Assembly (NCBI GenBank): GCA_017625155.1
Contig: JAGALP010000008.1
Coordinates: forward strand, 1-52,168
Reading direction: 5' to 3'
Source: Paludibacteraceae bacterium
GTDB taxonomy: Bacteria > Bacteroidota > Bacteroidia > Bacteroidales > Paludibacteraceae
DNA length: 52,168 nt
A program made the position numbers and the translations under genes. Within the stretch, counting starts at the first letter, position 1; every line of letters begins with the position of its first letter. The notes beneath the pieces were generated by a model that saw nothing but the letters and a program-made list of their open reading frames with translations, was not told the origin of the DNA and made no database searches. Positions 72 to 17,210 of this stretch are shown piece after piece.

Positions 72-104
72 ATACCACGCAAATACTAAAGCGTGGTATT
101 TTCC
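72..104 (+). terminator. Rho-independent terminator left of the integrase
   Basis: A perfect 9-bp stem (ATACCACGC, 72-80, pairing with 91-99) encloses a 10-nt loop and is followed by TTTTCCTTTC. It probably ends the last chromosomal transcript, or insulates element A from it. The stem is symmetrical enough to act on both strands. No gene is visible in bases 1-71. Confidence 0.7.
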
Positions 105-140
105 TTTCTTTTCCCTGCTTAATAAAATAAATGCCTAAAT

Positions 141-239
141 TTTGTTACCCGTTTGTTACTTTTTGCCGTAAATGCTTGGAAGTAACAAATACATTTTATA
201 CCTTTGCCGGCGTAACAAACCTTTAATAGTAGTAACAAA
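141..239 (+). promoter_or_regulatory. Integrase promoter with five phased GTAACAAA octamers
   Basis: The octamer TTTGTTAC occurs at 141-148 and 152-159, and its complement GTAACAAA at 182-189, 212-219 and 232-239. Start-to-start spacings are 11, 30, 30 and 20 bp, close to whole helical turns. A Bacteroidota -7 element TACCTTTG lies at 199-206 with CTTG 20 bp upstream at 175-178. The 182 copy sits between the two promoter elements and the 212 copy sits near the expected start of transcription. This fits arm-type integrase or excisionase sites doubling as operators. The last copy touches the integrase start codon, so it may partly reflect A-rich leader preference. Confidence 0.55.
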
Positions 240-1421
240 ATGGCAAGGCCTAAGAAACAAACCAGGGCTAAAGAGCCCGTACGTATCCGTTTCAAGGAAT
301 TGAGCAACGGAAACAAATCTATCTATCTGGATATTTACAGAGACGGCAAACGCAGTTATGAATTTCTTAAACTGTACCTGGTGCCGGAAAAATCACAAGT
401 AGCAAAAGTACAGAACGAGCAAGTAATGGCCGCGGCTAACGCGATCAAGTCGCAGCGTATTATCGAGCTGAGCAACAACACGGCCGGAATTAAGGTAGAC
501 CCCACGAAAGCAAAAATACTTTTATGCGACTGGCTACAGATCTGCAAGGAGCAAAAGCGTAAAAAATTTACGGCGGGTACTGTAAACAATATGCAGGCGC
601 TTATTAACAACCTGGCAGAGTACGGCGACCGTATACCGATGCGTAACGTAGATAAGGACTACTGCCTGGGATTTATCGAGTATTTGCGTAATTACCGCGT
701 AGAGCTAAAACCGGATCCAAAAACTGGCGAGCTGCGCCCAGGTAAGCCGCTAAGCGCGTTTACTATTAACGCCCGCTTTGAGCTGCTAACCGCTGTACTT
801 AACGCCGCCGTACGCGAGGAAATTATAAGCGTAAACCCTATTAAGAAAATCGAAAAGACAGACAAAACACACCGTCCAGAAAGTACGCGTACGTTCCTAA
901 CAATCGACGAAATAAAAACACTGATCGACACGCCAGCAGAAAAAGATCATATTAAACGGGCGTTTCTGTTTTCGTGTTTCTGTGGTTTGCGTTTCAGCGA
1001 CGTAAAGCAAATAACCTGGGCTAATATCGAAGAAAATAACGGCCGCTATTATGCAAATATCATAATGCAAAAGACCAAAGAACCGCTATATTTGCCACTG
1101 AGCCAGCAGGCGTTATCATTTTTGCCGGAACGCAAAAAAGGCGACAGTATGCACGCGCCTATATTTAATAACGATATACGCCTAAACTGCGTAGTAAATA
1201 AGTACCTCAAGCGCTGGGCCGACGCAGCCGGAATAACCAAAACGGTAACGTTTCACGTAGCCCGCCACACTTTCGCCACTACGTCGCTAACCCTGGGCGC
1301 AGATCTATACACCACGTCGAAGCTGTTAGGCCACACGAATATAAGTATTACCCAGGTATACGCGAAGATCGTAAACGAAAAGAAAAACGAAGCTGTAGAT
1401 TTGTTCGACCGCGTATTTTAG
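240..1421 (+). CDS. int: Tyrosine recombinase / integrase of element A
   Basis: This 393-residue site-specific recombinase would insert and excise element A by strand exchange at an att site. The N-terminal half has a SAM-like core-binding region. The C-terminal catalytic half shows the expected residues: Arg near 251 in CGLRFSD, Lys in MQKTKEP, HVARHTF near 339-345 (His-x-x-Arg), LLGH, and the Tyr nucleophile near 372 in TQVYAKI. Length and motifs are typical of Bacteroidales element integrases. It differs strongly from the element B integrase, which lacks the first catalytic Arg, so the two elements probably use different att sites. The ATG at 240 follows an octamer that may autoregulate it. 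Family assignment is secure; the target site is unknown. Confidence 0.95.
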   Translation: MARPKKQTRAKEPVRIRFKELSNGNKSIYLDIYRDGKRSYEFLKLYLVPEKSQVAKVQNEQVMAAANAIKSQRIIELSNNTAGIKVDPTKAKILLCDWLQICKEQKRKKFTAGTVNNMQALINNLAEYGDRIPMRNVDKDYCLGFIEYLRNYRVELKPDPKTGELRPGKPLSAFTINARFELLTAVLNAAVREEIISVNPIKKIEKTDKTHRPESTRTFLTIDEIKTLIDTPAEKDHIKRAFLFSCFCGLRFSDVKQITWANIEENNGRYYANIIMQKTKEPLYLPLSQQALSFLPERKKGDSMHAPIFNNDIRLNCVVNKYLKRWADAAGITKTVTFHVARHTFATTSLTLGADLYTTSKLLGHTNISITQVYAKIVNEKKNEAVDLFDRVF

Positions 1422-1468
1422 CCAGGACCAGTTTTTAGTATTGTAGAACTTAACCGTATTAGTAGAAT

Positions 1469-2218
1469 ATGGATTACCGAGAAAAAAAATATTTGGAGCG
1501 CGTAGGCCAGGCCGTAGACGATTATATATACGAATATTTAATTTTGCCAGACGAAACCCGTATATATGTAAATCCCGCTGCTTTCGAAGCATATCTAAAA
1601 ACGATACAGCCCCAATTATGGGCGCCCGAATTTCGTAACGCTTACGACACGATTCGAGCGTATAAGAGCCTATACAACGACGAAGAAACAGAAAAAAGCC
1701 TAAGCAGTGCGATAGATTGTTTGCGCAGTTTGGCGGCTACCTACTGCCCAGAGATCGCCCAGGAACTGGGAGAGCTGCACACCTCAGCAGCGCAGCCAAC
1801 GGCCCAGGAACCGCAGAGCGAAACGGAAAAACGAACAGTAAACGAAACGACAAAAAGCGTTTCACGTCCAGCGCTGCCAGCAGGCATAAAAGACACACCA
1901 GGGGCGCGCGCTGCTTTCGATAGCCTGGTAGATGCAGGGTATTTGGATAGCGAGTACAAGCCGACCGCGAGCGCCGCAAAAAATGTAATTTGTGCGTATA
2001 TGGCAGCAACGCTTAGCCAGCTGCTGGGCGTGGATCACTGGGCGAAAGTATTTGCCGATTTTTGGAACGTAAAGCCTATTTTGTCGCAGTCGTATAACCA
2101 GCTTAACCCAGGCAAACAATTTATAACCGATATAGATAAAGCCCTGGCAGCAGCAGCCAGGAACTGCGAGCAGCTGGCCCAAACCAAACGAGGCAAAGAG
2201 CTATTACGCAAAAAATAA
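1469..2218 (+). CDS. Hypothetical protein, helical, after integrase
   Basis: A 249-residue protein whose function I do not recognise. Residues 1-100 are helical with many aromatic and acidic residues. Residues about 105-140 are a low-complexity Ser/Thr/Gln/Glu/Pro linker. The last 110 residues form a second domain (AGYLDSEYKPT, LLGVDHWAKVFADFW, basic end KRGKELLRKK). Such C-terminal domains occur next to integrases in Bacteroidales mobile elements, which is a loose family impression. It lies 47 bp after the integrase and is probably cotranscribed with it. The two-domain layout with a flexible linker and basic tail would suit a regulator or nucleoprotein factor, but that is inference. Confidence 0.75.
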   Translation: MDYREKKYLERVGQAVDDYIYEYLILPDETRIYVNPAAFEAYLKTIQPQLWAPEFRNAYDTIRAYKSLYNDEETEKSLSSAIDCLRSLAATYCPEIAQELGELHTSAAQPTAQEPQSETEKRTVNETTKSVSRPALPAGIKDTPGARAAFDSLVDAGYLDSEYKPTASAAKNVICAYMAATLSQLLGVDHWAKVFADFWNVKPILSQSYNQLNPGKQFITDIDKALAAAARNCEQLAQTKRGKELLRKK

Positions 2219-2230
2219 CAATTATAGAAC

Positions 2231-2272
2231 GTAACAAACCTATATTATAAACAATTAAATTTTAGTAACAAT
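2231..2272 (+). promoter_or_regulatory. GTAACAAA octamers before the coiled-coil regulator
   Basis: GTAACAAA recurs at 2231-2238 and, with one mismatch, at 2265-2272, overlapping the ATG at 2271. The same octamer is repeated five times before the integrase. This suggests shared control of the integrase and this gene, possibly by the gene product itself. AT-rich DNA (TATATTATAA) lies between the copies. No full TTTG/TAnnTTTG promoter is evident. Confidence 0.35.
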
Positions 2273-2651
2273 GGCAACAATGAACAATGAGAGCCAAAAG
2301 TATTTGGCCGAGCTCCAGGGATTAGAAAATTTTGCAGACCGCGAAAAGTTAGTAAAAGAGTGGTTAGGCTGCGAAGAGTATTACGATGCTTTAGACCAGT
2401 TTTTCGGTAGTTTGTACGTATACAAATGCGAGAAAATGCAAGCTATTTTAGCCTATTTTCGCGAGATTAACGGCGTGGACGATGCGGAACAGCCAGCAGA
2501 TCTTAACGCTGGCGAGCGCACGCCAGTAACACCCGCTGCGGGCCTAAGCGCCGAATTTGTGCGGGATCTGTTAGCGGCTAAAGACAAGCAGATAAATACG
2601 CTGCTGGATATACTGGCAAAAACTAAGGCAAGAAACGAGGCAGCCCAATAA
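2271..2651 (+). CDS. Small regulator-like protein sharing the phage repressor C-terminal helix
   Basis: A 126-residue protein. The N-terminal 70 residues are helical (YLAELQGLENFADREKLV...) with no recognisable helix-turn-helix. After a Pro/Thr/Ala linker, residues about 98-118 read FVRDLLAAKDKQINTLLDIL, closely matching FVRDLLAEKDRQIDALLKII at the C-terminus of the element B repressor (19,016-19,408). In Bacteroidales phage repressors this helix is probably an oligomerisation segment. A protein with the pairing helix but no DNA-binding domain could form mixed complexes with the repressor and act as an anti-repressor; that is inference. It is followed by a strong terminator, so it is the last gene of its unit. 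Confidence 0.75.
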   Translation: MATMNNESQKYLAELQGLENFADREKLVKEWLGCEEYYDALDQFFGSLYVYKCEKMQAILAYFREINGVDDAEQPADLNAGERTPVTPAAGLSAEFVRDLLAAKDKQINTLLDILAKTKARNEAAQ

Positions 2652-2673
2652 TAACAGCTGCTAATTATAGGGC

Positions 2674-2712
2674 AATACCCCGACGCTATTACGGCGCTGG
2701 GGTATTTCTTTT
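2674..2712 (+). terminator. Terminator after the coiled-coil regulator
   Basis: AATACCCCGACGC (2674-2686) pairs with GCGCTGGGGTATT (2694-2706), with two internal mismatches and a 7-nt loop, followed by TCTTTTT. This closes the integrase-proximal transcription unit. Confidence 0.8.
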
Positions 2713-3060
2713 TAACACACCCAGGAAGAAGCAGAAACGGGCCTATTTTCGCTTTTCTGCGAGACGGCGACAAATCCTACAGCGGCGAATTAGGACGGCT
2801 GTACGGGCCTAAATTAGCCCAAAGCGTTGAGGCTATAAACTGACGGCAGCGCCTGGATCCTTTCGGGTAGTATGGCAGCAGCTACCAGGTGGCAGGCAAA
2901 ACGCGTCGTTTTATTTATAGATATTATAGTTATTTATAGCGCTATATTATAGCTATTTAGCTGTGTTATGCGCTGTTTTTCTTTTATATTCCTTTGTTGT
3001 GCTTTTGATACACAAGAGCCCGCGCGAAGCGGATTTTGTCGAACTATAAAAGTTACAGTT
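2713..3060 (+). promoter_or_regulatory. Gene-free stretch with direct repeats upstream of the AlpA-like gene
   Basis: The left part holds a coding-looking open frame without an ATG (2721-2843, ending SVEAIN and a stop), perhaps the remnant of a small gene. The right part is AT-rich and carries a direct repeat: ATATTATAGTTATTTATAG (2921-2939) and ATATTATAGCTATTTAGCT (2944-2962), 23 bp apart. This looks like a paired operator before the AlpA-like gene and VapE operon. The GC-rich segment 3020-3035 (GCCCGCGCGAAGCGG) could form a small hairpin in the leader. Confidence 0.35.
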
Positions 3061-3288
3061 ATGGGAGCAAATGAAATGCTAACAACAAAAGAGGCCGCCG
3101 AATTTTTGGGCCTTTCTGTGGGGTATCTGTACAAACTTACAATGCAGAAGAAAATACCCTATTACAAACCTTTCGGGAACCGCTGCTATTTCAAGCGCGA
3201 CGAATTAGCCGAGCTTTTACAAAGTAACCGTATCGCGACTGTAGACGAAGTACAGCGCCAAGCCGTCGTACACGTATTAAGCAAATAA
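3061..3288 (+). CDS. AlpA/excisionase-type helix-turn-helix protein
   Basis: A 75-residue winged-helix (HTH_17) protein. The core reads LTTKEAAEFLGLSVGYLYKLT followed by the wing KIPYYKPFGNRCYFKRDELAELL, the standard form of excisionase/AlpA proteins. I chose the ATG at 3061 because the frame upstream, which opens at 2968, has a hydrophobic Cys-rich lead-in unlike the family. AlpA relatives direct excision of P4-like satellites and activate their integrase. Here it sits just ahead of the VapE gene and behind the paired direct repeats. It is probably the excision or early-control switch of element A. Confident on fold, moderate on role. Confidence 0.85.
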   Translation: MGANEMLTTKEAAEFLGLSVGYLYKLTMQKKIPYYKPFGNRCYFKRDELAELLQSNRIATVDEVQRQAVVHVLSK

Positions 3289-3299
3289 CCTGGGTCCGT

Positions 3300-5720
3300 A
3301 TGAAAGATCGTGTATTTGTTGTATCTGTAGGCAAAAGCCGAGAGAGCAAGAAATGGAAACGGACTAACTACAAGTGGCCCGATTTCGTGGAGCGCTGCAC
3401 GCAGACGCTACGCACGAAAGAAACAGCCGCCCAGTACGCAGCTATGAGCAAAGACGCCCAGGGTAATATAAAAGACGTGGGCGGGTTTGTGGCCGGATCC
3501 TTAAACGGCGAAAGACGCAAAAAAGAAAACGTTATATCGCGATCTATGCTAACGCTGGATCTGGATTTTGTGAATATGCCGGCAGCGGATCTGTGGGGCG
3601 AAATAGATAGCGGCCTGGAATATACGGCGCTGGTTTATTCGTCGCACTCACATACGCCGGAAAAACCACGCCTGCGACTGATCATACCGACCAGCCGAGA
3701 TATGGCGCCGAATGAGTACGAACCGATCGCGCGCAGGATCGCGGCCGAAATAGGTATAAATCAATTTGACGACACCACCTACGAAACAGCCCGCTTAATG
3801 TACTGGCCCAGTACGTCCAGCGATGCCGAGTTTTACTGCAACCACAAAACCGGCAAGATGCTAAACCCAGACGATATATTAGCACAGTACGACGACTGGC
3901 AGGACGTAAGCAGCTGGCCGCGTAGTATACGCGAGGGCGACACAGTGGCGCGCCGAGAGATTAAAAAGGCCGGCGATCCACGCGAGAAGTACGACGGCGA
4001 CGGTAAGATAATAGGCGCTTTTTGCAGGGCCTACAGTATCGAGGACGCTATAGAAACGTTTTTAGACGAAGTATATAAACCTGGTACAAAAGGACGCTAC
4101 AGTTACAAACTGGGCGAAAGCACTAACGGCGTAGTTTGTTACGATGGGCTGTTTGCCTATAGCCACCACGGAACCGACCCAGCGGGCGGTAAACTGTGCA
4201 ACGCTTTCGACCTGGTACGTATACATAAGTTTGGCAGCCTGGATATAGGCAGCAGGGCCGACGACGTTACGCGCCAGCCGTCCTATAAAGCTATGCGAGA
4301 TTTTGCCGCAAATGACGACAAAGTAAAAATAGCGCTGCTGCACAGTGCCGGCGACGATTTCGCAGCTGTGGATCTAACGGACGCCAACCAGTGGAAAACA
4401 GGTTTAGAGTTCGGAAAGAAAAACGAACTAAAGCCCACAGTATTAAATTTCCGTTTGATCCTGGAGAACGACCCGCAGTTACGCGGCCGTTTCTGGGTAA
4501 ATGAATTATCGCAATATATTGAAGCTGGGCTACTGCCCTGGAGATCGCAGCCTGGCCAGTGGGTAGACGCTGACGACGCGAACCTACGCGGCTACTTGGA
4601 AGAACACTACCAGTTAGCCGGTAAAGATAAGCTGGCCGACGCTTTTACGATCGTGGCGCTAAAGAACAAGCAGCACCCCGTACGGGCATATTTGCAGGGC
4701 CTACAGTGGGACGGACGCGCGCGCCTGGATAAAGTTATTATATCGCTGCTGGGCGCTAAGGATACGGCCCTAAATAGGGCTATCACGCGCAAACACTTTG
4801 TGGCAGCTGTAGCCAGGATCTACCAGCCAGGTATAAAATACGATACCTGCCTAACGCTTACTGGCCCAGAGGAAACGGGCAAATCAAGCCTGTTTAGAAT
4901 AATGGGCGGCCCCTGGTTTGACGATAGTATTACTACGATCGAGGGCAAAGAGGGACGCGAGAGCCTGCGCGGTAAATGGATTATCGAGCTGGCCGAGCTT
5001 AACAGTATAAAGCGCAGCGAAGTAGCAGCCGTTAAAAATTTCCTATCCAACCAGGCAGACAGCTATAGGGCCGCGTACGACAGACGCGTAACACCGTACC
5101 CGCGACAATGCGTTTTTTGTGGAACTACCAACGAAGATAAATTTCTAAAGGGCGACACCGGAAACCGCCGCTTTTGGGTTATCCAGATTGTTCCGGAGCT
5201 GTGCGGCGGCGAACCGCTGGCCGATCGCCTGGAACGTTTGGAACTGTGGCGCGATCAGCTTTGGGCCGAAGCGGTACACTACTATAAGGCTGGCGAAAAA
5301 CTATACCTGGATAAAGAGCAAGCCGACGCGCTGCGCAATACTCAGGAAGAATTTAGCGACGAAAGCGACGACCCCACAAAACCGCTGCTGCGCCAGTTCC
5401 TATATATGAAGCTGCCGACCGACTGGGTAACCTGGGATTTGCCACGTCGCCGCGCTTACCTCAACGCTGGCGACCCGCTGGACGCTGAGGGAATAGTACC
5501 GCGCGATCGCTTTTGTATTGCTGAGTTTCTTTGCGAGAGAATGGGCGCAAATATGGCCGATAAGGACTACAGATATAGAGCGCGCAAGATTGCAAAACTA
5601 ATGGCTGATTTTCCAGAATGGCAGCCGCTGACCAGTACAAGACACGCGGAAAAATTGTACGGCTCACAGCGTGGCTACCAGCGTAGGATCCGAGACGCGG
5701 ACACCGACGAAAAGATATAA
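3300..5720 (+). CDS. VapE/VirE-type primase-helicase with BT4734 N-terminal domain
   Basis: An 806-residue replication protein. Residues about 10-330 resemble the BT4734 N-terminal domain found in Bacteroidales phages (conserved KDVGGFVAG, LTLDLDF, PRLRLIIPTSR, YWPSTSSD). About 400-806 is a VirE/VapE superfamily 3-like ATPase with Walker A GPEETGKSS near 522-530, then KWIIELAEL and CGTTNEDKFLKGDTGNRRFW. It is a clear homologue, of almost identical length, of the element B protein at 28,678. Both lie close upstream of GTAAAC iteron arrays, so the likely role is origin melting and priming. VapE-like ATPases are common in satellites and small prophages. It starts 11 bp after the AlpA-like gene. 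Confidence 0.92.
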   Translation: MKDRVFVVSVGKSRESKKWKRTNYKWPDFVERCTQTLRTKETAAQYAAMSKDAQGNIKDVGGFVAGSLNGERRKKENVISRSMLTLDLDFVNMPAADLWGEIDSGLEYTALVYSSHSHTPEKPRLRLIIPTSRDMAPNEYEPIARRIAAEIGINQFDDTTYETARLMYWPSTSSDAEFYCNHKTGKMLNPDDILAQYDDWQDVSSWPRSIREGDTVARREIKKAGDPREKYDGDGKIIGAFCRAYSIEDAIETFLDEVYKPGTKGRYSYKLGESTNGVVCYDGLFAYSHHGTDPAGGKLCNAFDLVRIHKFGSLDIGSRADDVTRQPSYKAMRDFAANDDKVKIALLHSAGDDFAAVDLTDANQWKTGLEFGKKNELKPTVLNFRLILENDPQLRGRFWVNELSQYIEAGLLPWRSQPGQWVDADDANLRGYLEEHYQLAGKDKLADAFTIVALKNKQHPVRAYLQGLQWDGRARLDKVIISLLGAKDTALNRAITRKHFVAAVARIYQPGIKYDTCLTLTGPEETGKSSLFRIMGGPWFDDSITTIEGKEGRESLRGKWIIELAELNSIKRSEVAAVKNFLSNQADSYRAAYDRRVTPYPRQCVFCGTTNEDKFLKGDTGNRRFWVIQIVPELCGGEPLADRLERLELWRDQLWAEAVHYYKAGEKLYLDKEQADALRNTQEEFSDESDDPTKPLLRQFLYMKLPTDWVTWDLPRRRAYLNAGDPLDAEGIVPRDRFCIAEFLCERMGANMADKDYRYRARKIAKLMADFPEWQPLTSTRHAEKLYGSQRGYQRRIRDADTDEKI

Positions 5721-5727
5721 AAAAGAG

Positions 5728-6045
5728 CTGTAAACGTAACCTGGAATGTAAACGCAAAAAAGCACTGAGTTTACAAGCGACCAACCAACAAACGAACCAA
5801 CGAACAAACCAAATGTAAACCGAGCCGTAAACGTTTACAAGCCGGTTTACAAGTCAGTTTACGGCTAAATAACTGAGTAATAAATATATATATATATGTA
5901 AACTATGTAAACTTAAAATATCTATATAGCTATATAGTTTTATCGTAATATATAAAAATACGGTATTACAGTATACAAAATAGTATACATACGCGTAACA
6001 GTATAGAATATAGGGAAAATGAGTTTACCCAGTTTTAGTTTACAA
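5728..6045. other. Putative replication origin of element A: GTAAAC/GTTTAC iterons and AT-rich tract
   Basis: No gene lies here. Twelve copies of GTAAAC or its complement start at 5730, 5748, 5769, 5815, 5827, 5833, 5845, 5857, 5898, 5907, 6023 and 6038. The 5815-5862 block is spaced 12, 6, 12 and 12 bp with adjoining inverted copies. A very AT-rich stretch with (TA)n lies at 5881-5995, as expected of a DNA unwinding element. A purine-rich CCAACCAACAAACGAA block is at 5780-5812. It directly follows the VapE gene. The element B array downstream of its own VapE uses the same hexamer. Confidence 0.65.
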
Positions 6046-6064
6046 AACGCAAAATAGTAATCGT

Positions 6065-6472
6065 ATGCGCCACCGTATAAACGTATCAATAACGCCGGTA
6101 TTCCACGACGAGTTACAGCGTATCTGCAAGGACTACGGGTTTGTTAATCTGTGCGAGATATGTACGGCCCTGCTGAGGGTTTTTGTAGATCGAGTAAACA
6201 ACGCGGAGCAAGACAAGAGCCGACGCTTAGAACGGAATGAGGATTTAATAAAGCAAATGTTTGCTGAGTTTGAAAACTGGGAGCCGACGCCGCAGCCGGA
6301 TATTATGTACAAGCGACACCAGCGACGTAATCCGGACAACGTATACCAACGCAAACCCAGACCGGAAGCTGGCGACTGTGCCGACGGCCTGGAAGATCCG
6401 GACAGTAGCGCTGAGGATCCCGCCCAGATCTGCGACGATATAGGTATTAGTCTATACGATTTTGAGGGCTAA
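6065..6472 (+). CDS. Ribbon-helix-helix-like protein with acidic tail
   Basis: A 135-residue protein. The first 60 residues (RINVSITPVFHDELQRI, YGFVNLCEICTALLRVFVDRV) have the strand-helix-helix pattern of a ribbon-helix-helix DNA-binding protein. They align with the element B protein at 33,699 (VNISVDPETYAKLQQL, YGFSNVCELVVAFVHILLDRM). The following IKQMFAEFENWEPTP also matches IDQMFDDLGHVERTP. The extra C-terminal 50 residues are acidic and Pro-rich. In element A it sits just after the origin; in element B it sits just before HNH and the packaging site. A role in DNA binding near replication or packaging is plausible. Confidence 0.8.
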   Translation: MRHRINVSITPVFHDELQRICKDYGFVNLCEICTALLRVFVDRVNNAEQDKSRRLERNEDLIKQMFAEFENWEPTPQPDIMYKRHQRRNPDNVYQRKPRPEAGDCADGLEDPDSSAEDPAQICDDIGISLYDFEG

Positions 6473-6476
6473 AAAT

Positions 6477-6520
6477 GGTTAAAACCTTTTTATGCTGGTA
6501 CCCAAAACAAGGTTTTAACC
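6477..6520. promoter_or_regulatory. Perfect 12-bp inverted repeat, candidate operator pair
   Basis: GGTTAAAACCTT (6477-6488) and AAGGTTTTAACC (6509-6520) are exact inverted copies separated by 20 bp. Each arm is itself nearly palindromic (GGTT-NN-AACC), centred 34 bp apart. There is no T-run, so a terminator is unlikely. The site lies between the RHH-like gene and the next operon, suggesting an operator or a looped RNA leader. Confidence 0.5.
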
Positions 6521-6558
6521 GTATAGTAGAGACTGTTAAACATAATAGACATTAACGT

Positions 6559-6909: not shown

Positions 6910-6927
6910 CTATTAACAGACAATACA

Positions 6928-7551: not shown

Positions 7552-7553
7552 TG

Positions 7554-7630
7554 GAGGTATACCCCGTTAAACCTCGCCCCAAACCTCGCGAGAACGCGAG
7601 CAATTTTTTGGATTTGCGGAACTTTTGGCA
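7554..7630 (+). other. cos-like packaging site of element A, copy of the site before terS in element B
   Basis: Two blocks are identical to element B: CCGTTAAACCTCGCCCC (7564-7580, matching 34,353-34,369) and TTTTGGATTTGCGGAACTTT (7606-7625, matching 34,395-34,414). They are separated by exactly 25 bp in both elements, with 14 of those 25 bases matching. The left flank (7554-7563) matches at 7 of 10 positions. In element B the site sits between HNH and small terminase genes, the usual place of cos in HK97-like phages. Element A has no terminase. The natural reading is a terminase recognition or cutting site kept for packaging by a helper phage. Confidence 0.65.
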
Positions 7631-7664
7631 AAATGGAGTGTAAACGGAAATAGATTTTGAAAAA

Positions 7665-7952: not shown

Positions 7953-7981
7953 AGAAGTATAACCCAGTAAAACGAATAACA

Positions 7982-9280: not shown

Positions 9281-9306
9281 TATTTATAACATAATTACTC
9301 AAAGAT

Positions 9307-9753: not shown

Positions 9754-9757
9754 CCGT

Positions 9758-12046
9758 ATGAAGTATTTACGATATATGGGCGAATTTCTTAGCGTGGCCG
9801 GCGTAGTCTGGCGCGCTGAGATTATGCAAGAAGCCGACGCCGAGTTTGAAACTATAGGCGCTTTGGAATTTGATGCAGACCAGCCGCTGGTTATCGAATG
9901 GGGCCACAAAAACAAAGAGGAGGTTATTTGCAGTAGTACGGCCACGCTAAAGATAATAAGCCCTGGCGACCGCACCTACGAAGATCTGTACAGTATCGAA
10001 GTGGGCCGCGTCCGTTTGGACGTCTACCGTAATAATTCGCTGTACTGGAGTGGCTGCATAGATACTGAGTTTTACGAAGAACCGTACGAACGTCTAAACG
10101 GCTATTCCGTTTTGCTCACGTTTAACGATATGGGCGTACTGGATCGTTTGAATTTTGATTTATCCGGTATGCAGACACTGGCCGGCTTGGTTAGTTACTG
10201 TGTGGGCCGCTGTGGTTTTATTTGTGGCGGTATCGACGACAGCCTAATAAGTACCCAGCTAACAAAAAATGGCAGCGCGTTAAAGCTGGCAGACTTAAAA
10301 GTACGTAGCGATAATTTCTACGACGAGGACGGCGAAGCTAAGACACTGGCCGACGTTATCGAGGGCATTTTACAGCCGCTGGCGCTGCGTATCGTACAAC
10401 GCGCTGGAAAGGTATACGTATACGATATTAACGGACTGTATACAAAAGCTGCAAACAAACTGATCGAGTGGGACGGATCCAGCCAAACGATGGGAGTAGA
10501 CAGCGTATACAATAACGCAAAAATAACCTGGAGTACATACGCCCAGAGTGGCAACCTATCGCCCGAAAGCTGCTGGCCCGAAAGTATAGAGACGCCGCCT
10601 AACGTAGCAGCATTAAATAACGTTTCCGGTGGCAGTATGAACGGCGCTCAGTATTTTTCGTACCACTACGAAAATAAAGACCTGGTTAAATGGTGGGACG
10701 CGCAGGATTACGGTTTTACTATCTGGCTGGCAAAGCAGGGAGACAACGCAGAGCTTACAAACACTAACGTACGTTTCTTTAGGATCGTACCGCAGTATGA
10801 CGGTACAGAGTGCGAGGGCGTAGCGGTAAAGTGGACAGCTGTAGCCGGTATTAAAATTACATACCCTGGCGGTTACGATATGTCGTATAGATTTGTTCCG
10901 TACGGCGTAAACTTAGCAGATCTTACGGGCTTTTTAACTGATATAGGCCCTGCACTTTTTAAGAATAACGGCGTATGGGTGCCGCCAGTAGAGACCGCAA
11001 GCGATCTATTATTACGCGTGCGCCTGGATATGCTGTTAGATCCACGTTTTAACCCGTTTGAAAGTGCCGAAAATAACGGTTTGGTAAACTATAAAGATTT
11101 TTACAGTAACTGGAATACGCACGGTAATTTTGTCTACGTGCCCGTTACTATTAAGTTCCAGCCAGACGGCAGCGATACTGTATATGTATGGGATAATCGT
11201 AGTATCGTGCAGGCCGACGTAAGCAACCCAGTAAAGAGTATTAACGGTACATACGGCAGCTGGGTAAAATTAACCGACGACGAAACACCTAACGCCTGGG
11301 GCTGGCTGGCTTACTACGACGCTAAGGATAGGAAAGAAACCAGCGGCGTACTGGGTTGGAAGATGAACCGCCCAGCGATTAACCCGCATACCGCGGCTAC
11401 GCTTTCAATCCTAACCAATGCAGAGGACGGCCAGTACATTCCTTACCCTAATTTTGGAGGTAACGGCGGTAAATTATGGGTAGAAGTGCGCGCCGGAAAC
11501 TGGCAAATTAGCGACGGTAACGCAACGCTAAAAAATGTAAATTACAATAACCCTAAACAGTTATGGGATAAAATTAGCTGGATCCTTTTTAAGCTGCCGG
11601 AAATTGAAATTTTGAACGGCCGCCAGTTCGACCAGACAATTAACACCGATGACGTAGAATATAGCGCACTGTTAAACAGAGCAGCCAAAGAAGCGATCGA
11701 AATAGACACGATTTGCGGCACCAGTGCAGAGGGCGTACCGACAGCGCGCGGCGCTTATTTCGACGCCTCAACGGGTAAGCAAATAAAGCAACTGACCAGA
11801 GCCGGACGAACTACGCAGGCAGAAGATCTACTAATAGGCACACTGTACAGCCAGTTTGCGCAGCGCCGTACGACGCTAAGCGGCGAAGCTGTTATATCGC
11901 AGGATCCTATAGTAGCTTACCAGGAAGCAAACCAGGGCGATAAATTGTTTATGATCGTTGAGGAAGTGCAGGACGTACGCCTGGATAGCAGCGATACTAC
12001 CTACGTGGAAATTAGACCAGACGAGTATAAACGTAATAACGAATAA
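9758..12046 (+). CDS. Tail-tip/baseplate structural protein
   Basis: A 762-residue homologue of the element B protein at 45,310 (764 residues), with the same start (MKYLRY..GEFLSVAGVVWRAEIMQEAD) and near-identical end (VEIRPDEYKRNNE). The centre (about residues 270-440) diverges most. In element B the gene follows the tape measure, the usual place of the tail-tip or baseplate hub proteins of siphoviruses. No enzymatic motif is seen. In element A it is followed directly by the tail fibre, without the four tail genes that lie between in element B. It could replace or compete with the helper tip protein to install element A fibres. Confidence 0.85.
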   Translation: MKYLRYMGEFLSVAGVVWRAEIMQEADAEFETIGALEFDADQPLVIEWGHKNKEEVICSSTATLKIISPGDRTYEDLYSIEVGRVRLDVYRNNSLYWSGCIDTEFYEEPYERLNGYSVLLTFNDMGVLDRLNFDLSGMQTLAGLVSYCVGRCGFICGGIDDSLISTQLTKNGSALKLADLKVRSDNFYDEDGEAKTLADVIEGILQPLALRIVQRAGKVYVYDINGLYTKAANKLIEWDGSSQTMGVDSVYNNAKITWSTYAQSGNLSPESCWPESIETPPNVAALNNVSGGSMNGAQYFSYHYENKDLVKWWDAQDYGFTIWLAKQGDNAELTNTNVRFFRIVPQYDGTECEGVAVKWTAVAGIKITYPGGYDMSYRFVPYGVNLADLTGFLTDIGPALFKNNGVWVPPVETASDLLLRVRLDMLLDPRFNPFESAENNGLVNYKDFYSNWNTHGNFVYVPVTIKFQPDGSDTVYVWDNRSIVQADVSNPVKSINGTYGSWVKLTDDETPNAWGWLAYYDAKDRKETSGVLGWKMNRPAINPHTAATLSILTNAEDGQYIPYPNFGGNGGKLWVEVRAGNWQISDGNATLKNVNYNNPKQLWDKISWILFKLPEIEILNGRQFDQTINTDDVEYSALLNRAAKEAIEIDTICGTSAEGVPTARGAYFDASTGKQIKQLTRAGRTTQAEDLLIGTLYSQFAQRRTTLSGEAVISQDPIVAYQEANQGDKLFMIVEEVQDVRLDSSDTTYVEIRPDEYKRNNE

Positions 12047-12052
12047 AACTGT

Positions 12053-13177
12053 ATGGGAGTTACAAGTAAACAAGTAGTTAAATTTATCCGTAAGGGGGAT
12101 AAAGGCGACAAAGGAGAGCAGGGCGCAGTATTGCGAGGGCCGCAAGCCTGGAGCGACTGCGCCACTGGCTACGCGTTTCAAGCCGGCGGCGCTGGCGAGA
12201 CCTGGCAGGACGTCGTAATATATGGCGACCAGCACTACGTCTGTAAAAAATCGCATACCAAGACCGCCAGCAATTACCCAGGCAGCACCACGGCTAATAA
12301 TAACGGCTACTGGCAGCTGGGCGATCATATAGACCTGGTAGCGACTAAAATTTTGCTGGCTACCTACGCACTGGTTAAAAATCTGGGTGTAGAGGCTATA
12401 GATATGAAAGACGCCAGCGGTAATATACTATTCCAGGCAAAAGACGGCGCGGTAACGTGCAAAACTGGTACGTTTGATAATATCGTGGTGCAGTCTGGAA
12501 AAGTGGCCGGCTTTACGATTTCCGGTAATGGTTTATCTAATACGCCATTTGATAACGACGCCTATATAGTCTTTAGAAACGACGCCCAGGGTGCATTTGC
12601 TGGTATCGGTGGTAACGTGCAGCCGGCGTCGTCCGGTATGCGAGCCGTGGCCCGTTTTGAGAACCACGACGCTAACGACGTTTGGGGGCTGGGAACTAAC
12701 TACGGTATGCTGGTATCGGCCCGTGGATCCAGGGATAATCGCGCTATACATATCGACGGTGGCAATATAAGCGGCTTTGCCCTTAAAAATACGATAATCG
12801 GTACTACTACAACCAGCCAAACACTGGCCAGGACTGATTATAATGTAATTACCATAAATACGAGCGCGTGCACGCTGACGCTGCCGACTATGCAGCTGTA
12901 CGATGATGGCCACGTTATCCGTATTAAGCGTTTAGGATCTGGAGCACTTAAACTTAAACTGGGCTACTGTTATACCTGGAATGGTACGAGCTACCGATAT
13001 ACGCGGCCCGTCCTGGTATATAACGACGACAAAAAACTAACCGGAACCAGCGAGCTATCGGTAGACAGCGTATGCGACAGTATGGAATTAGTTTGGGTGC
13101 GTGATATTAACTACACGATAGACGGCACACAGTATTACGGTGCGTGGGTGCAGTACAAGTTACCGCGCGCGTGGTAG
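12053..13177 (+). CDS. Tail fibre with collagen-like N-terminus
   Basis: A 374-residue fibre. The conserved N-terminal anchor VVKFIRKGDKGDKGEQGAV has three Gly-x-y collagen triplets. Next comes a Trp/Tyr module with features of a small carbohydrate-binding module (GETWQDVVIYGDQHYVCKKS...GYWQLGDH). A beta-rich shaft and a C-terminal domain (about 285-374, WNGTSYRYTR, YYGAWVQYKLP) follow. From base 12,070 to 12,210 the DNA is identical to 52,028-52,168 of element B, whereas the upstream tail-tip genes differ noticeably. It starts 6 bp after the tail-tip gene. Probable role: attachment to the cell surface and anchoring of the variable protein. Confidence 0.85.
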   Translation: MGVTSKQVVKFIRKGDKGDKGEQGAVLRGPQAWSDCATGYAFQAGGAGETWQDVVIYGDQHYVCKKSHTKTASNYPGSTTANNNGYWQLGDHIDLVATKILLATYALVKNLGVEAIDMKDASGNILFQAKDGAVTCKTGTFDNIVVQSGKVAGFTISGNGLSNTPFDNDAYIVFRNDAQGAFAGIGGNVQPASSGMRAVARFENHDANDVWGLGTNYGMLVSARGSRDNRAIHIDGGNISGFALKNTIIGTTTTSQTLARTDYNVITINTSACTLTLPTMQLYDDGHVIRIKRLGSGALKLKLGYCYTWNGTSYRYTRPVLVYNDDKKLTGTSELSVDSVCDSMELVWVRDINYTIDGTQYYGAWVQYKLPRAW

Positions 13178-13204
13178 TATTACTAACGATAAAGATTTTA
13201 GATT

Positions 13205-13963
13205 ATGGCAAAGAAAACAAAGACTTTAGCGGCGGTTACGACCGTATCGACCGTAAATACGTCGCAGTTTATACCGCTTACAGATGGTAACGGTAACACC
13301 ACCAAAGTATCGCTGGCCAACCTCAAAGCGTCGCTGCTGGCGGGTTTGGATCTTGACAGTATTAACGACGGGGTATTTATTATGTTTCACAGAAACAGCG
13401 ATAATTACCCGCTAATGGTAAAACCGCATAAGTGGACGAGCTACCAGAACAGCGGCGAGATCGCCGAGGGCGTCGTAGTTGTTGAGGGCGGCAAAATACT
13501 GGTGGTGGCACCTACCGAAGCGACGCTGTACTGGAGTAGCGCAGCGGTAAGCGGCGGCGGTAAAACGACTACCGACCGACTTACTGCACTGGACGACTGG
13601 ACGGGTAAAGCCAGCACAGCTGCACAGATTACGCATAGCGAGTGCAACAGCGAAAGTTACGCGCCTGGTTACTGTGCTGCGTACGAAAGAGTAAACGCAA
13701 ACGGTAAGGGCCTAACAGCTGGCCGATGGTGGCTGCCGTCGCTGGGCGAGTTAATGATGATCTACGCAAATATGCGTAAAATCAATTATGCGCTATCGCT
13801 GATTAACGGAGCTACGCCGCTGGCCGAAACCTGGTACTGGAGTAGTACCGAGTACAGCGCTACCAACGCGTGGCTTTTGTACCTCGACGATGGCTTCGCG
13901 GGCAACCTCACTAAGGCTACGCACCAGGGCAGAGTTAGGGCCGTTTCAGCATTTTTGTATTAA
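13205..13963 (+). CDS. DGR variable protein 1 (C-type-lectin-like adhesin)
   Basis: A 252-residue protein. Residues 1-50 carry a tail-associated motif (IPLTDGNGNTTKVSLANL). The C-terminal 130 residues have a C-type lectin/DUF1566-like fold: GRWWLPSLGELMMIYA, TWYWSSTEYSATNAW, ending RVRAVSAFLY. The last 38 codons contain VR1. Relative to the template, asparagine codons have become Leu, Tyr, Asp, Asp, Phe, Gly, Leu, His and Gly, on the expected ligand-binding face. It sits just after the tail fibre and before avd, so it is the likely receptor-binding tip whose specificity is retuned by the retroelement. Confidence 0.92.
   Translation: MAKKTKTLAAVTTVSTVNTSQFIPLTDGNGNTTKVSLANLKASLLAGLDLDSINDGVFIMFHRNSDNYPLMVKPHKWTSYQNSGEIAEGVVVVEGGKILVVAPTEATLYWSSAAVSGGGKTTTDRLTALDDWTGKASTAAQITHSECNSESYAPGYCAAYERVNANGKGLTAGRWWLPSLGELMMIYANMRKINYALSLINGATPLAETWYWSSTEYSATNAWLLYLDDGFAGNLTKATHQGRVRAVSAFLY
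13850..13951 (+). repeat. DGR variable repeat 1 (VR1)
   Basis: A 102-bp copy of the template repeat at 14,531-14,632. By hand alignment it differs at 15 positions, and every one is an adenine in the template (to C, G or T). No template C, G or T is changed. The shared 3' segment GTTAGGGCCGTTTCAGCA is followed by TTTTT in VR1 and by CCTTT in the template, the usual IMH/IMH* contrast. This is a textbook sign of adenine-specific mutagenic retrohoming. Confidence 0.97.
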
Positions 13964-13992
13964 CAGTTAGTAGTTAGTTTTTAACCTTAAAA

Positions 13993-14010
13993 GTACGGCG
14001 ATAGCCGTAC
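13993..14010 (+). promoter_or_regulatory. DGR target hairpin downstream of VR1 (GATA tetraloop)
   Basis: GTACGGC (13,993-13,999), loop GATA, GCCGTAC (14,004-14,010) form a perfect 7-bp stem. It begins 53 bp after the start of GCCGTTTCAG in VR1. In the Bordetella phage BPP-1 DGR, a GC-rich stem with a GRNA-type tetraloop downstream of VR is needed for target recognition. VR2 has an equivalent hairpin at a 52-bp offset; the template has none. Confidence 0.8.
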
Positions 14011-14038
14011 AGTATTCCGTTTCAACCGCATACGTAGT

Positions 14039-14422
14039 ATGGCAAAGTTAGTATCTAATACGCAGATCTATTTAGACTGCCGAAAACTGCTGGACGCGAT
14101 ACTGGATATTACGCCCAGCTTTCCACGCGCCTATAAATTTAGCATAGGTAGCCGGCTGCACGATTTAGCCATAAATCTAATGTCGGAAATATCGGCAGCT
14201 TACATAAATAGAGATCGTGCCGTGCGTATTCAGCACCTGGTTAATTTCCAGGCTGACTTTGAGGTATTAAAAACCCTGCTGCGTATCGCGGGCGAAAGGA
14301 AATGGATATTAGGTAAAAGCAAACACGCAGATATTATCGAACTGACGGACGCGATAGGCAAACAGTCTACTGCGTGGAAGAACTCACTATTAAAGTTAAA
14401 CAGCAGACCGGATAGCGAGTAA
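14039..14422 (+). CDS. avd: DGR accessory protein Avd
   Basis: A 127-residue all-helical protein of the accessory variability determinant family. Avd forms a barrel-like homopentamer of four-helix bundles, binds template RNA and reverse transcriptase, and is needed for mutagenic cDNA synthesis. Visible features are a small size, basic overall character, helices with the pattern IGSRLHDLAINLMSEISAAY...RAVRIQHLVNFQADFEVLKTLLRIA, and the RKWILGKSKHADII segment. It lies between the variable protein and the template repeat, the standard DGR order. Downstream (14,423-14,530) is noncoding and should form the 5' part of the template RNA. Confidence 0.9.
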   Translation: MAKLVSNTQIYLDCRKLLDAILDITPSFPRAYKFSIGSRLHDLAINLMSEISAAYINRDRAVRIQHLVNFQADFEVLKTLLRIAGERKWILGKSKHADIIELTDAIGKQSTAWKNSLLKLNSRPDSE

Positions 14423-14530
14423 ATGCCAGATTTGGACGGTTACGACTAACCAAGCGTGCAAGTTATCTGTAAAAATGGGCCGTGCACTATCATTTATAGT
14501 TAAGACCAAGTAAGTACGGCACGGAGTTGC

Positions 14531-14632
14531 GAGTACAGCGCTACCAACGCGTGGAATTTGAACCTCAACAATGGCAACGCGAACAACAACACTAAGGCAA
14601 CGAACCAGAACAGAGTTAGGGCCGTTTCAGCA
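14531..14632 (+). repeat. DGR template repeat (TR)
   Basis: A 102-bp noncoding donor copy of VR1 and VR2, rich in AAC/AAT triplets in the variable frame, so adenine mutagenesis reaches many amino acids without stop codons. It lies between avd and the reverse transcriptase. Read in the VR frame it would encode a run of Asn residues (NLNLNNGNANNNTKATNQN). There is no target hairpin after it, which should protect it from rewriting. The template RNA probably spans about 14,423-14,675. Confidence 0.95.
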
Positions 14633-14674
14633 CCTTTGCAGATTACCAAATACACACAGAAAAGATTAAAAGAT

Positions 14675-15859
14675 ATGGTTACTACAGCTGGAATGTTAGA
14701 GGCGTATTTTGACTGCCGCCAAAGGAAGCGGAAAACAGCCAGCGCCATAATGTACGAAGTGGACTACGAAAGCAAGCTAATAGCGCTGCGCGATCGTATA
14801 AACGACCGTACCTACCAGCCTGGTAAATCTATCTGTTTTGTCGTAACGCGTCCGCGGTATCGAGAAGTATTTGCGGCCGCTTTTGAAGATCGCATAGTGC
14901 ACCACTGGGTAGCGCTACGTTTAGAGCCGTTATTTGAGCAAGTTTTTAGCCCGCGTACATTTAACTGCCGAAAGGGAAAAGGCCAGCTGTACGGCGTAAA
15001 AATGCTATACAACGATATAGTAATATGCAGCCAGAATTATACCCGCGACTGCTATATTATGAAACTGGATTTGCAGGGCTTTTTTATGTCAATAAACAAA
15101 GCTATGCTGGCCCGTATGTTAGACGCGTTTATACTGGAACACTACCAGGGCGACGATATAGAGGACGTACGGTATTTATGCCAGGTACTGATACTGCACA
15201 GTCCAGAACACCACTGCGAAAGGCATAGCCCTATACGATACTGGGACTATCTACCGGCTAATAAATCGCTGTTTACAAATGGCGAGGGCCTGGGCGTCGC
15301 TATCGGTAATTTGTTTGCGCAGCTTTTCGCAAATTTCCTGCTAAACGTCCTGGACTGGTTTTTACTGAAAGATTTAGGATTTACCCACGTCGGCCGATAC
15401 GTGGACGATTTCTATATTATCCACACCGACAAAGCAAAGCTGCTGGCCGCAGTGCCACGGATCCGCGAACTACTGGCGCGGTATGGCCTAAAGCTCAGCC
15501 CGACTAAATTTTATATCCAGCATTACACCAAAGGCGTAGAGTTTACCGGCAGTATCGTAAAGAAGCAGCGCGTATATACCTGCAACCGTACAGTAAAAAA
15601 TTTCGTTATGGCCGTGCGGCGCCTCAACAAAGCCGAGACCATACCGGAAGTGCAGCACGCTATCGACAGTATAAATAGTTATCTGGGCTGCCTACGCCAC
15701 GGAAACGAATATAACACCAGGCGAAAGATCCTGCGAAAGATAGAACCGCACTGCTATAAGTGGATCTACATAAAAGGACGGTACGAAAGCGTACAGCTGA
15801 TTAAAAGATATAGGCAAAGAAGTATAACCCTACAGCGTATTAGAGATGGAACCTATTAA
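14675..15859 (+). CDS. DGR reverse transcriptase
   Basis: A 394-residue group II-like retroelement reverse transcriptase of the DGR clade. It has the catalytic box YVDDFYII (Tyr-x-Asp-Asp, residues 242-245), IGNLFAQLFANF near 210-221 (the DGR variant of the motif 4 QGxxxSQ region), KLDLQGFFMSI upstream, and the thumb region GLKLSPTKFYIQHYTKGVEFTGS. No endonuclease or RNase H domain is present, as is usual. The frame is open upstream to an ATG inside the template repeat (14,558), but 14,675 gives the normal family N-terminus (MVTTAGMLEAYFDCRQRKRKT). It makes adenine-mutated cDNA from template RNA with Avd. Confidence 0.95.
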   Translation: MVTTAGMLEAYFDCRQRKRKTASAIMYEVDYESKLIALRDRINDRTYQPGKSICFVVTRPRYREVFAAAFEDRIVHHWVALRLEPLFEQVFSPRTFNCRKGKGQLYGVKMLYNDIVICSQNYTRDCYIMKLDLQGFFMSINKAMLARMLDAFILEHYQGDDIEDVRYLCQVLILHSPEHHCERHSPIRYWDYLPANKSLFTNGEGLGVAIGNLFAQLFANFLLNVLDWFLLKDLGFTHVGRYVDDFYIIHTDKAKLLAAVPRIRELLARYGLKLSPTKFYIQHYTKGVEFTGSIVKKQRVYTCNRTVKNFVMAVRRLNKAETIPEVQHAIDSINSYLGCLRHGNEYNTRRKILRKIEPHCYKWIYIKGRYESVQLIKRYRQRSITLQRIRDGTY

Positions 15860-15995
15860 CCCACCGAAGCCGGTAGCTGTGCTGCCACTGCCGGAGTTAG
15901 ACGTAGAATTAGTGCAGGCGCTGGCCAAACACTGGCTGGTAACTGTGGAGCAGCAAAATAACGAAGTGCTAATAAAGTTATACCCTATGGCCTAA
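15846..15995 (+). CDS. Small protein between RT and lysis genes
   Basis: A 49-residue frame overlapping the end of the RT gene by 14 bp and abutting the next start codon with no gap. It is Pro-rich at the N-terminus (MEPINPPKPVAVLPLPELD) with a short amphipathic helix (VQALAKHWLVTVEQQNNEVL). The exact fit between neighbours supports a translated gene coupled to the lysis cassette. Function unknown. Confidence 0.6.
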   Translation: MEPINPPKPVAVLPLPELDVELVQALAKHWLVTVEQQNNEVLIKLYPMA

Positions 15996-16331
15996 ATGAA
16001 AGAAGTATTACTAACGGCTGCCAGCATATTAGGAACGCTGGGCGGCTGGGAAATGATTAAGTATTTAATAAACCGAAAGACGAACACCCGAAAAGCAGAA
16101 GCCGAAGCAGACAGCAGCGAGTTTAGCGTATTGCGTGATACTGTTATATTCCTGGAAGAACAGCTAAAGCAGAAAGAAGAACGATTTGCCGAGCAGACGA
16201 ATTTAGTACGAAAGCTAACTAATGAAAATTTGGAGCTGACGCGCGAAAATTCTATGCTGAAAACTGAAAGAGCGCTAAAGCTGTGCGAGCGCAGGAACTG
16301 TGCACAGCGCCAACCTCAAAGCGGATATTAG
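15996..16331 (+). CDS. Holin-like protein: membrane segment plus coiled coil
   Basis: A 111-residue protein. A hydrophobic N-terminal segment (VLLTAASILGTLGGWEMIKYLI) is followed by a basic stretch and a heptad-rich coiled coil from about residue 45 to 95 (LEEQLKQKEERFAEQTNLVRKL). It lies immediately upstream of the amidase, a usual place for a holin or membrane accessory of lysis. Similar single-span coiled-coil proteins precede amidases in Bacteroidales phages. The predicted role is inner-membrane permeabilisation or timing, unproven because single-span holins are hard to recognise. Confidence 0.65.
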   Translation: MKEVLLTAASILGTLGGWEMIKYLINRKTNTRKAEAEADSSEFSVLRDTVIFLEEQLKQKEERFAEQTNLVRKLTNENLELTRENSMLKTERALKLCERRNCAQRQPQSGY

Positions 16332-16332
16332 T

Positions 16333-16734
16333 ATGCGAAAGATAACGAAGATTATAGTACACTGTAGCGCGACCCCAGAGGGCCGCGACTACACAGTGGC
16401 CGATATAGACCGCTGGCACAAGCAGCGCGGCTGGAAAGGTATAGGCTACCACTACGTAGTATATCGGGACGGCAGCGTACACACTGGCCGAGACGTGGCA
16501 GCTATCGGCGCACACTGCACCGGCCAGAACGCAAACAGTATAGGTATCTGCTATATAGGCGGCTGCGCTGCTGATGGCAAGACACCAAAGGACACCAGGA
16601 CACCGGCACAACGCGAAGCACTGCGCGACCTGGTAGAGTTATTAAAAACCGAATACCCTAACGCGACGATACACGGCCACCGAGAATTTGCAAACAAGGC
16701 GTGCCCGTGCTTCGACGTAAATACAGATCTGTAG
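16333..16734 (+). CDS. N-acetylmuramoyl-L-alanine amidase (endolysin)
   Basis: A 133-residue type 2 amidase, like T7 lysozyme, that cuts the bond between MurNAc and L-Ala in peptidoglycan. Expected zinc ligands are visible: His10 in IIVHCSAT, a His in IHGHREF near 114-116, and Cys near 124 in KACPCFDV. GYHYVVYRDGSVHTGRD is the usual core. I chose the ATG at 16,333, one base after the preceding stop; an upstream ATG (16,300) would overlap the previous gene and add an unrelated lead. There is no signal peptide, so export should need the holin. It is compact, as phage amidases of this family are. Confidence 0.93.
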   Translation: MRKITKIIVHCSATPEGRDYTVADIDRWHKQRGWKGIGYHYVVYRDGSVHTGRDVAAIGAHCTGQNANSIGICYIGGCAADGKTPKDTRTPAQREALRDLVELLKTEYPNATIHGHREFANKACPCFDVNTDL

Positions 16735-16735
16735 T

Positions 16736-17176
16736 ATGAAACATTTGTTAATTATCGTTTCAGCGTTAATACTGGCCAGCTGCGCCAGTATGCGCCACGC
16801 GTCCACCCACCAGGTAGACCGCGACAGTACCTACCTAAGCACACGCCAGCTGGATAGCCTATATAGGGCATTTTGGCAGCGTGATAGCGTTTATAGACGC
16901 GACAGTATACACGAATACCATAAGGGCGACACAGTTATTAAATACGTCGAAAAAGAGGTATACAAGTGGCGCACCAGGACGGACACTATATACCGCGATC
17001 GCTGGCGCGTCGATACTATGTACGTCGAGCGCGTGGATAGTGTTACTGTAGAGAAACCCGTATATATCGAAAAGCAGATAAAGTGGTATAACCAGGGCTT
17101 TATATGGCTGGGCCGCTTATGCTGCATAGCGTTAATACTTTGGGCGCTATTTCTATACCTAAAGCGAAAATTTTAG
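16736..17176 (+). CDS. Lipoprotein with C-terminal membrane anchor, unimolecular-spanin-like
   Basis: A 146-residue protein. A lipoprotein signal with lipobox ILASC (Cys16) would anchor the N-terminus in the outer membrane. The centre is strongly charged and Tyr/Arg/Asp-rich with repeated short motifs (RDSVYRRDS, RTDTIYRDRWRVDTMYVERVDS). The C-terminus has a single transmembrane stretch (LCCIALILWALFLYL, about 126-141) and a basic tail. An outer-membrane lipid anchor joined to an inner-membrane segment is the design of a u-spanin, which fuses the two membranes in the last step of lysis. It follows the amidase by one base, completing a holin-endolysin-spanin cassette. Confidence 0.8.
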   Translation: MKHLLIIVSALILASCASMRHASTHQVDRDSTYLSTRQLDSLYRAFWQRDSVYRRDSIHEYHKGDTVIKYVEKEVYKWRTRTDTIYRDRWRVDTMYVERVDSVTVEKPVYIEKQIKWYNQGFIWLGRLCCIALILWALFLYLKRKF

Positions 17177-17210
17177 CATTTCTGTAAAGTGTTATTACGG
17201 CAGCCGTGCA

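Follow-up and report, generated by a model that had tools for sequence, protein, structure and literature searches.

The window analysed here is the complete contig JAGALP010000008.1 (52,168 bases), which comes from a 1.6-Mb, 62%-complete genome bin of Paludibacteraceae and holds element A at its left end together with phage B. Element A proper is 1–12069, with its true right end outside the assembly, and its full size is expected to be approximately 13.6–13.9 kb, judging from its relatives. By homology and gene order, it has its own integrase and attachment (att) core, a VapE and iteron module, a phage cos packaging site, and a conserved prohead protease with a variable slot after it. Element A is probably a member of a family of cos-type satellites of Bacuni_F1-like siphophages, which would combine nucleating parts of their own with the bulk parts of a helper. 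The core of the family (integrase, AlpA-like protein, VapE, iterons, cos site, and prohead protease) was found in three samples besides that of the window, and the four contigs that carry it are the window, L051, L087, and L088. The features of element A are as follows:

1–19, + strand: left att site with the crossover core TATCAAT at 7–13, a core shared by the L088 circle, the L087 chromosome junctions, and L051 and L161 (two contigs of one sample)
240–1421, + strand: tyrosine integrase (phrog_1, E 2e-52; 93–100% at the amino acid (aa) level in L051, L087, and L088)
1469–2218, + strand: satellite-core protein, function unnamed, whose C-terminal part is confined to the four core satellites among the fetched loci; its product has no Pfam or PHROG match
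2271–2651, + strand: satellite-core protein, function unnamed (54–56% aa in L051, L087, and L088)
2968–3288, + strand: AlpA-like helix-turn-helix protein/excisionase (phrog_66, excisionase and transcriptional regulator, E 8e-9; top match phrog_25262, function unnamed)
3300–5720, + strand: VapE-type primase-helicase (phrog_256, E 2.5e-275; 53% aa against the copy of B)
5721–6064, no strand: AT-rich iteron region with 12 GTAAAC/GTTTAC hexamers, probable replication origin
6065–6472, + strand: homologue (33% aa) of B g33699, a gene placed ahead of HNH-cos-TerS (TerS, terminase small subunit) in phages
6559–6909, + strand: satellite-core protein, function unnamed, confined to the four core satellites among the fetched loci
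6928–7551, + strand: satellite-core protein g6928, ending at the cos site, confined likewise
7544–7625, + strand: cos site of A
7665–7952, + strand: satellite-core protein, function unnamed, from comparison among core satellites
7982–8377, + strand: satellite-core protein g7982, function unnamed, from the same comparison
8426–9157, + strand: prohead (head maturation) protease, the final conserved-core gene (Peptidase_S78, E 2.5e-25; phrog_80)
9307–9753, + strand: variable slot, Lcl_C-like small protein g9307 (Lcl_C, E 5e-5, below the cut-off of Pfam)
9758–12046, + strand: variable slot, tail-tip protein of 762 aa (phrog_30639, function unnamed, E 8e-182; 73.8% aa to that of B)
12053–12069, + strand: A-specific start of a fibre gene, with six differences from B within 17 bases, in frame with phage fibres

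An original prediction made for this DNA had named the integrase, the AlpA-like protein, and the VapE module, all of which are confirmed by PHROGs matches, as well as the iteron origin, which is borne out by the 12 hexamers in 346 bases against a mean of 0.2 in mononucleotide shuffles. The equivalent iteron position holds 12 hexamers in L087 and 11 in L088. The cos-like site and the tail-tip gene at 9758, also part of that prediction, stand as well. Its description of A as free of capsid, terminase, tube, and tape measure is borne out for the last three in the 13 open reading frames (ORFs) of 240–12046, where PHROGs named no terminase, portal, tube, or tape measure (the Pfam scan took in seven of the 13); the prohead protease at 8426–9157 had been overlooked, and therefore A is not free of head genes. 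This gene also matches the first 200 positions of phrog_2263 and phrog_13042, which carry the name major head protein. Every match of the VapE of A in phage and plasmid records is under 60%. The product of g6928 is a candidate packaging or assembly factor, and a search for this gene in 358 genomes of the bacterial family returned one, namely the window itself. For g7982, the ratio of nonsynonymous to synonymous substitution rates (dN/dS) is above 1, resting on few changes.

Relatives of A were sought by a VapE scan of a species-genome collection, by IMG/VR scans with g6928, the integrase, and VapE, and by a portal scan. The first yielded 10 relatives, two of which (L087 and L088) have the A core; the second, one relative with the core, L051; and the portal scan, L161, from the sample of L051. 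L088, from a water-buffalo bin labelled Clostridia and perhaps misbinned, is a closed circle of 13,872 bp once an end overlap of exactly 141 bases is merged. L087, from a Rikenellaceae bin of roe deer, is a 13,641-bp insertion in a host gene, bounded by TATCAAT copies, and the halves of the gene rejoin in frame; a search of 150 genomes for an intact version of this gene gave weak matches (26–37%) in two. L051 holds a left junction (attL) and L161 a right junction (attR), with the core ATTGATTATCAAT, at another site. The tape measure is cut off near residue 50 in L051, and L161 starts near its residue 49, with no exact overlap of at least 15 bases; the two contigs probably represent one element. 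The circle, attL/attR, and the in-frame empty site form a signature of integration and excision as read from sequence only. The window itself begins at the att crossover core (1–13), a break that would be expected of a sample containing both integrated and excised forms.

Homology comparison of the complete elements L087 and L088 found no homologue of the terminase, major capsid, or tail tube of B, and no homologue of the genes of its diversity-generating retroelement (DGR) or of its lysis genes was found in L088, L087, or L051/L161 (both ends). In addition, L010, a distant relative from IMG/VR, has a g6065-like gene 5′ of its cos site, followed by small genes, a 329-aa gene, a tip, and a portal, with no terminase homologue on the contig; a search for further relatives of the 329-aa gene returned only itself. 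The predicted new satellite family in Bacteroidota thus gains support from the core as a circle (L088), as an insertion (L087), and at another site (L051 and L161), together with the phage packaging site.

The final 141 bases of the contig are an exact copy of 12070–12210, with identity failing at 142, just as the L088 contig closes on itself through exactly this length; 141 is the largest default k of the MEGAHIT assembler. Two assembly paths, that of A and that of B, seem to merge at 12070, and A seems to have been joined to phage B by the assembler via the common 141-mer. In the IMG/VR contig L008, the g50964 homologue, fibre, variable-repeat (VR) protein, Avd, reverse transcriptase (RT), lysis, and integrase genes are contiguous with no break. 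Its proteins from g40331 through lysis have 93–100% identity to those of the window, with the exception of the fibre (85% over 169 residues), while its head genes are more distant (39–86%). The contig-end repeat and the uninterrupted order in L008 therefore assign 12070–17210 to phage B as its right arm, so that the DGR and lysis genes are those of B, and A does not have to lie next to B. The features concerned are as follows:

12070–12210, + strand: exact repeat of the contig end and merge point of the A and B paths, from self-comparison of the window
12070–17210, + strand: right arm of phage B with the genes for fibre, DGR target, Avd, RT, and lysis, which run on into B-type genes in L008
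17232–52027, no strand: rest of phage B, probable helper type, from gene content and circular reading
34333–34414, + strand: cos site of phage B, between HNH and TerS, from alignment with the site of A
52028–52168, + strand: contig end, exact repeat of 12070–12210, from self-comparison of the window

The original prediction had carried the unit to 17210, given it a DGR and a full lysis cassette, and set it beside a complete phage. The 141-base repeat, the L008 order, and the 13.6–13.9-kb relatives contradict the first; the DGR and lysis genes belong to phage B and have no homologue in the other core elements; and the apparent adjacency seems to come from the assembler. The fibre, Avd, RT, and amidase genes lie where that prediction put them, but beyond the fibre start their assignment to A is not supported. 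The unit that it proposed to seek elsewhere does occur in its core in three other samples, at 13.6–13.9 kb in the two complete copies and with no homologue of the DGR or lysis genes. Element A has an in-frame fibre start of its own at 12053–12069 and therefore does carry a fibre gene, beyond whose start identity with B spans at least 141 bases. A search for the right end of A in the metagenome-assembled genome (MAG) of the window gave no match and had no positive control.

Phage B reads as a circle of 39,958 bp (12070–52027) and from 17232 on is siphophage-type, with HNH, TerS, the terminase large subunit (TerL), portal, protease, major capsid, tail tube, tape measure, and tip. In a set of 50,697 records, the phages closest to B were the Bacteroides phages Bacuni_F1, F2, and F4, with TerL at 85%. 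A second DGR target of B (26199–26885, with VR2 at 26739–26863) lies in the early region, far from the DGR. Against the template repeat at 14513–14637, 15 of the 28 differences of VR2 fall on A's of the template, compared with 18 of 29 for VR1, and homologues of this second target lie upstream of VapE in L058, L059, L062, and L089. The tape-measure gene of B contains three tandem 180-base repeats at 44086–44619.

The cos site of A is 80% identical to 34333–34414 of B (E 1.3e-15), and the block is alignable in five satellites and six phages. A pattern derived from this alignment matched 23 IMG/VR contigs, comprising 21 phages and two satellites (L051 and L010), and TerS lies within approximately 170 bases downstream of the site in all 21 phage contigs. 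Five of the 23, both satellites included, were rows of the source alignment, and the new information from the scan is that the remaining 18 all have the site ahead of TerS. Among 393 genomes of the order, the pattern occurs in the genome of the window only, at two sites. Its absence from 100 shuffles is an after-the-fact figure because the pattern was built from these sites, the unbiased figure being the E value above. One of the two records of Bacuni_F2 ends at the cos site, and one record end of F4 falls there; this coincidence may, with moderate confidence, mark the physical end of virion DNA. The GenBank record of Bacuni_F1 (L177:3478-3627), called complete, is without 35 cos-spanning bases that are present in the related contig L068, and a loosened cos pattern misses F1 because of this gap.

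Downstream of the core lies a slot for helper-type virion genes of low copy number, and its content differs between family members. In A, it consists of the Lcl_C protein, the tip, and the fibre start. The tail-tip name derives from the place of the gene after the tape measure in B, and the search made in IMG/VR for relatives of g9307 found none. The g9307 product is 27% similar to the C-terminal part of the DGR target protein. In L087 and L088, the slot contains a tape-measure chaperone homologue (a label resting on position and a 53–54% match to B g42048), a tape measure of 811–813 aa, and a portal of 395–397 aa (PF04860, E 2.6e-78, with PHROGs matches too); L051 and L161 together probably have the same chaperone, tape measure, and portal, while the slot of the distant L010 has a tip and a portal. 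Satellite portals of 395, 397, and 411 aa compare with 450 aa in B, within the range of other phages in the set. A satellite-type portal was sought in the MAG of the window, where the portal of B alone was found. The predicted host-recognition tip is thus present in A, with the fibre start, and a tip is present in L010, but it is only one of the alternatives that the slot may hold.

Gene-wide dN/dS between L087 and L088 is 0.10 for the portal, 0.08 for the tape measure, 0.15 for the protease, and 0.08 for VapE, values that place the tape measure, portal, and protease under purifying selection. In a quick tree of 46 rows, the proteases of the four satellites group as a single clade among those of phages, with a support of 100 in the Shimodaira–Hasegawa-like approximate likelihood ratio test (SH-aLRT), and the L087 and L088 portals also form one clade. 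L010 groups with these two portals in the quick portal tree (52 rows; SH-aLRT 89) and not in a careful tree of 33 of those 52 rows, and the approximately unbiased test does not separate the alternatives (p 0.52). Hits with fewer than 300 aligned residues (170 for proteases), internal stops, identical rows, and the split portal of L161 were left out of the trees, and long branches were flagged in both quick trees. The tape measure is a mosaic in which residues 1–400 are 94% identical to B-type phages, whereas residues 450–813 are 96–98% identical among satellites and at most 63% to the fetched phages.

In tailed phages, the first steps of head assembly involve the protease and portal, and those of tail assembly the tip and tape measure. 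Under the satellite explanation, growth of the helper phage would be accompanied by excision of the satellite and its replication with VapE. The satellite protease and whichever of portal, tape measure, tip, or fibre is carried would then join helper assembly at head or tail nucleation, with coat, tube, and terminase coming from the helper, whose HNH-TerS-TerL would cut the satellite cos. Satellite DNA, one third of the helper length, would fill a small head, or one of normal size if packed as a trimer: 13,641 and 13,872 bp are 34.1% and 34.7% of the 39,958 bp of B, and three copies make 102–104% of its length, so both fit. In the case of A, the outcome would be a particle with the own tip and fibre of the satellite. 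Since the nucleating parts would come from the satellite, each particle could be committed to it, with the bulk cost falling on the helper. A more general proposal is tentative, its chances being put somewhat below even: the family may represent a satellite class that replaces low-copy parts (protease with portal and tape measure, or tip and fibre), steals coat, tube, and terminase, trades through its slot the virion end that is controlled, and swaps sequence with its helper. Traces of such sharing are the fibre start and the N-terminal half of the tape measure. If this is true, the slot lets the family choose the virion end under its control, the host-recognition tip included.

Several observations weigh against the satellite explanation, which is drawn entirely from genome comparison. 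The slot of A (9158–12069) is known from one contig only, the portal of L161 (L161:2892) has an apparent frameshift that is either real decay or an assembly error, and the portal trees neither establish nor reject a single origin of all satellite portals. In the MAGs of L087 and L088, the TerL relatives are all distant (27–36%), and no helper-type TerL was found. Furthermore, the F2 records break at a second place and the other end of the F4 record lies inside TerS, and therefore the record ends are weak evidence. A different function for the virion-type proteins of a real satellite is unlikely: altered protease, portal, tape measure, or tip could poison helper assembly or give immunity outside particles. 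Tail-assembly inhibitors (Tai) do occur in PICIs (phage-inducible chromosomal islands) and phages according to the passages concerned of PMC11364771, and the satellite portals are short, albeit inside the range noted above; however, the genes are long with low gene-wide dN/dS, and the common cos site implies that spread of the satellite needs helper particles. It is improbable, though compatible with the satellite explanation, that the core is a satellite to which the assembler joined a second phage in the slot at 9158–12069. An A-like tip lies behind an ordinary tape measure in L026 (85% across 332 residues from its start, up to the contig end), the slot of A recurs in no second contig, and g9307 is without relatives found; there is no long exact repeat there in the window, though joins need not leave one, and L010 independently has cos, tip, and portal without a terminase homologue.

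It is very unlikely that a 17-kb satellite next to phage B has a tip, fibre, DGR, and lysis cassette of its own: the fibre start of A does lead into the stretch common to both, identical to B over at least 141 bases, but the exact contig-end repeat, the L008 gene order, and the lengths of L088 (13.9 kb) and L087 (13.6 kb), which like L051/L161 have no DGR or lysis homologues, speak against it. Least credible is an eroding Bacuni-like prophage that has lost head and tail genes, a reading to which the homology of the structural genes to B-type phage genes and the out-of-frame L161 portal would lend themselves. It was rejected on the circle, the precise insertion, the low dN/dS, and the separate protease clade; one core in four samples, the retained iterons and cos, and a portal placed after the tape measure, unlike the product of a deletion in phage gene order, also contradict it.

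PICIs are characterized by the gene order int, AlpA-like regulator, and primase-replicase with origin, and by a length of about a third of the helper genome; the P4 genome is likewise one third of that of its helper. A has the order of integrase, AlpA-like regulator, and primase-type replication with origin of Gram-negative cos-type PICIs, and it resembles them in an expected size of about a third of the helper and in a cos of the helper-recognised kind, as described for PICIs in part of PMC10690885. The family described here differs in bringing a protease with helper-type portal, tape measure, tip, or fibre, and no PICI packaging or capsid gene (TerS, Rpp, CpmA/B, or Ccm) was named by PHROGs (13 ORFs) or Pfam (seven ORFs). 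Capsid-forming PICIs (cf-PICIs), in the account cited from PMC10690885, encode their own capsid, connectors, HNH, and terminase and depend on the helper for tails. They share with the present family a carried prohead protease and portal and the borrowing of the remaining virion, whereas L087 and L088 have no homologue of the capsid or terminase of B and carry tail parts; the family is filed as a phage satellite and not a cf-PICI because capsid and terminase were looked for and none was found. The Streptomyces satellites MulchRoom and MiniFlayer have structural genes, namely terminase, portal, and major capsid, without a primase in the passages cited, and MiniFlayer has a tail fibre (PMC10690885). 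In SaPIbov5, Ccm, a satellite copy of a helper virion gene (a capsid homologue), redirects assembly (PMC8569155, in the section concerned); no capsid-protein homologue was found in the present family. P2 terminase recognises cos on P4 (PMC10690885, same account), and P4 and PLE (PICI-like element) capture the helper coat, as is proposed for the family, but A has no match named Sid or TcaP where Sid/Psu-type genes were looked for among PHROGs and Pfam names. AH14b is described as using structural proteins of its helper in part of PMC4936722, and Charybdis elements are without portal, terminase, and protease genes in the passages cited of PMC12324425.

The matches listed, mainly in open-access literature, included no satellite that has a portal and a tape measure, or a tip, but lacks a capsid, and those listed in open-access literature included no description of a Bacteroidales satellite family, which the present one would be. 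Bacuni_F1, F2, and F4 of Bacteroides uniformis (PMC8143477) are cultured relatives of B of approximately 40 kb (F2 in two records) with a DGR, a cos at the equivalent place, and, according to PMC8143477, a head diameter of about 50 nm; they are phages, not satellites, and make the satellite-helper relationship testable. The satellites compared here either resize the head of the helper or bring a whole head, while the present family, if the proposal is true, would show that a satellite can take over assembly where head or tail nucleates and can set its own tail length or receptor specificity.

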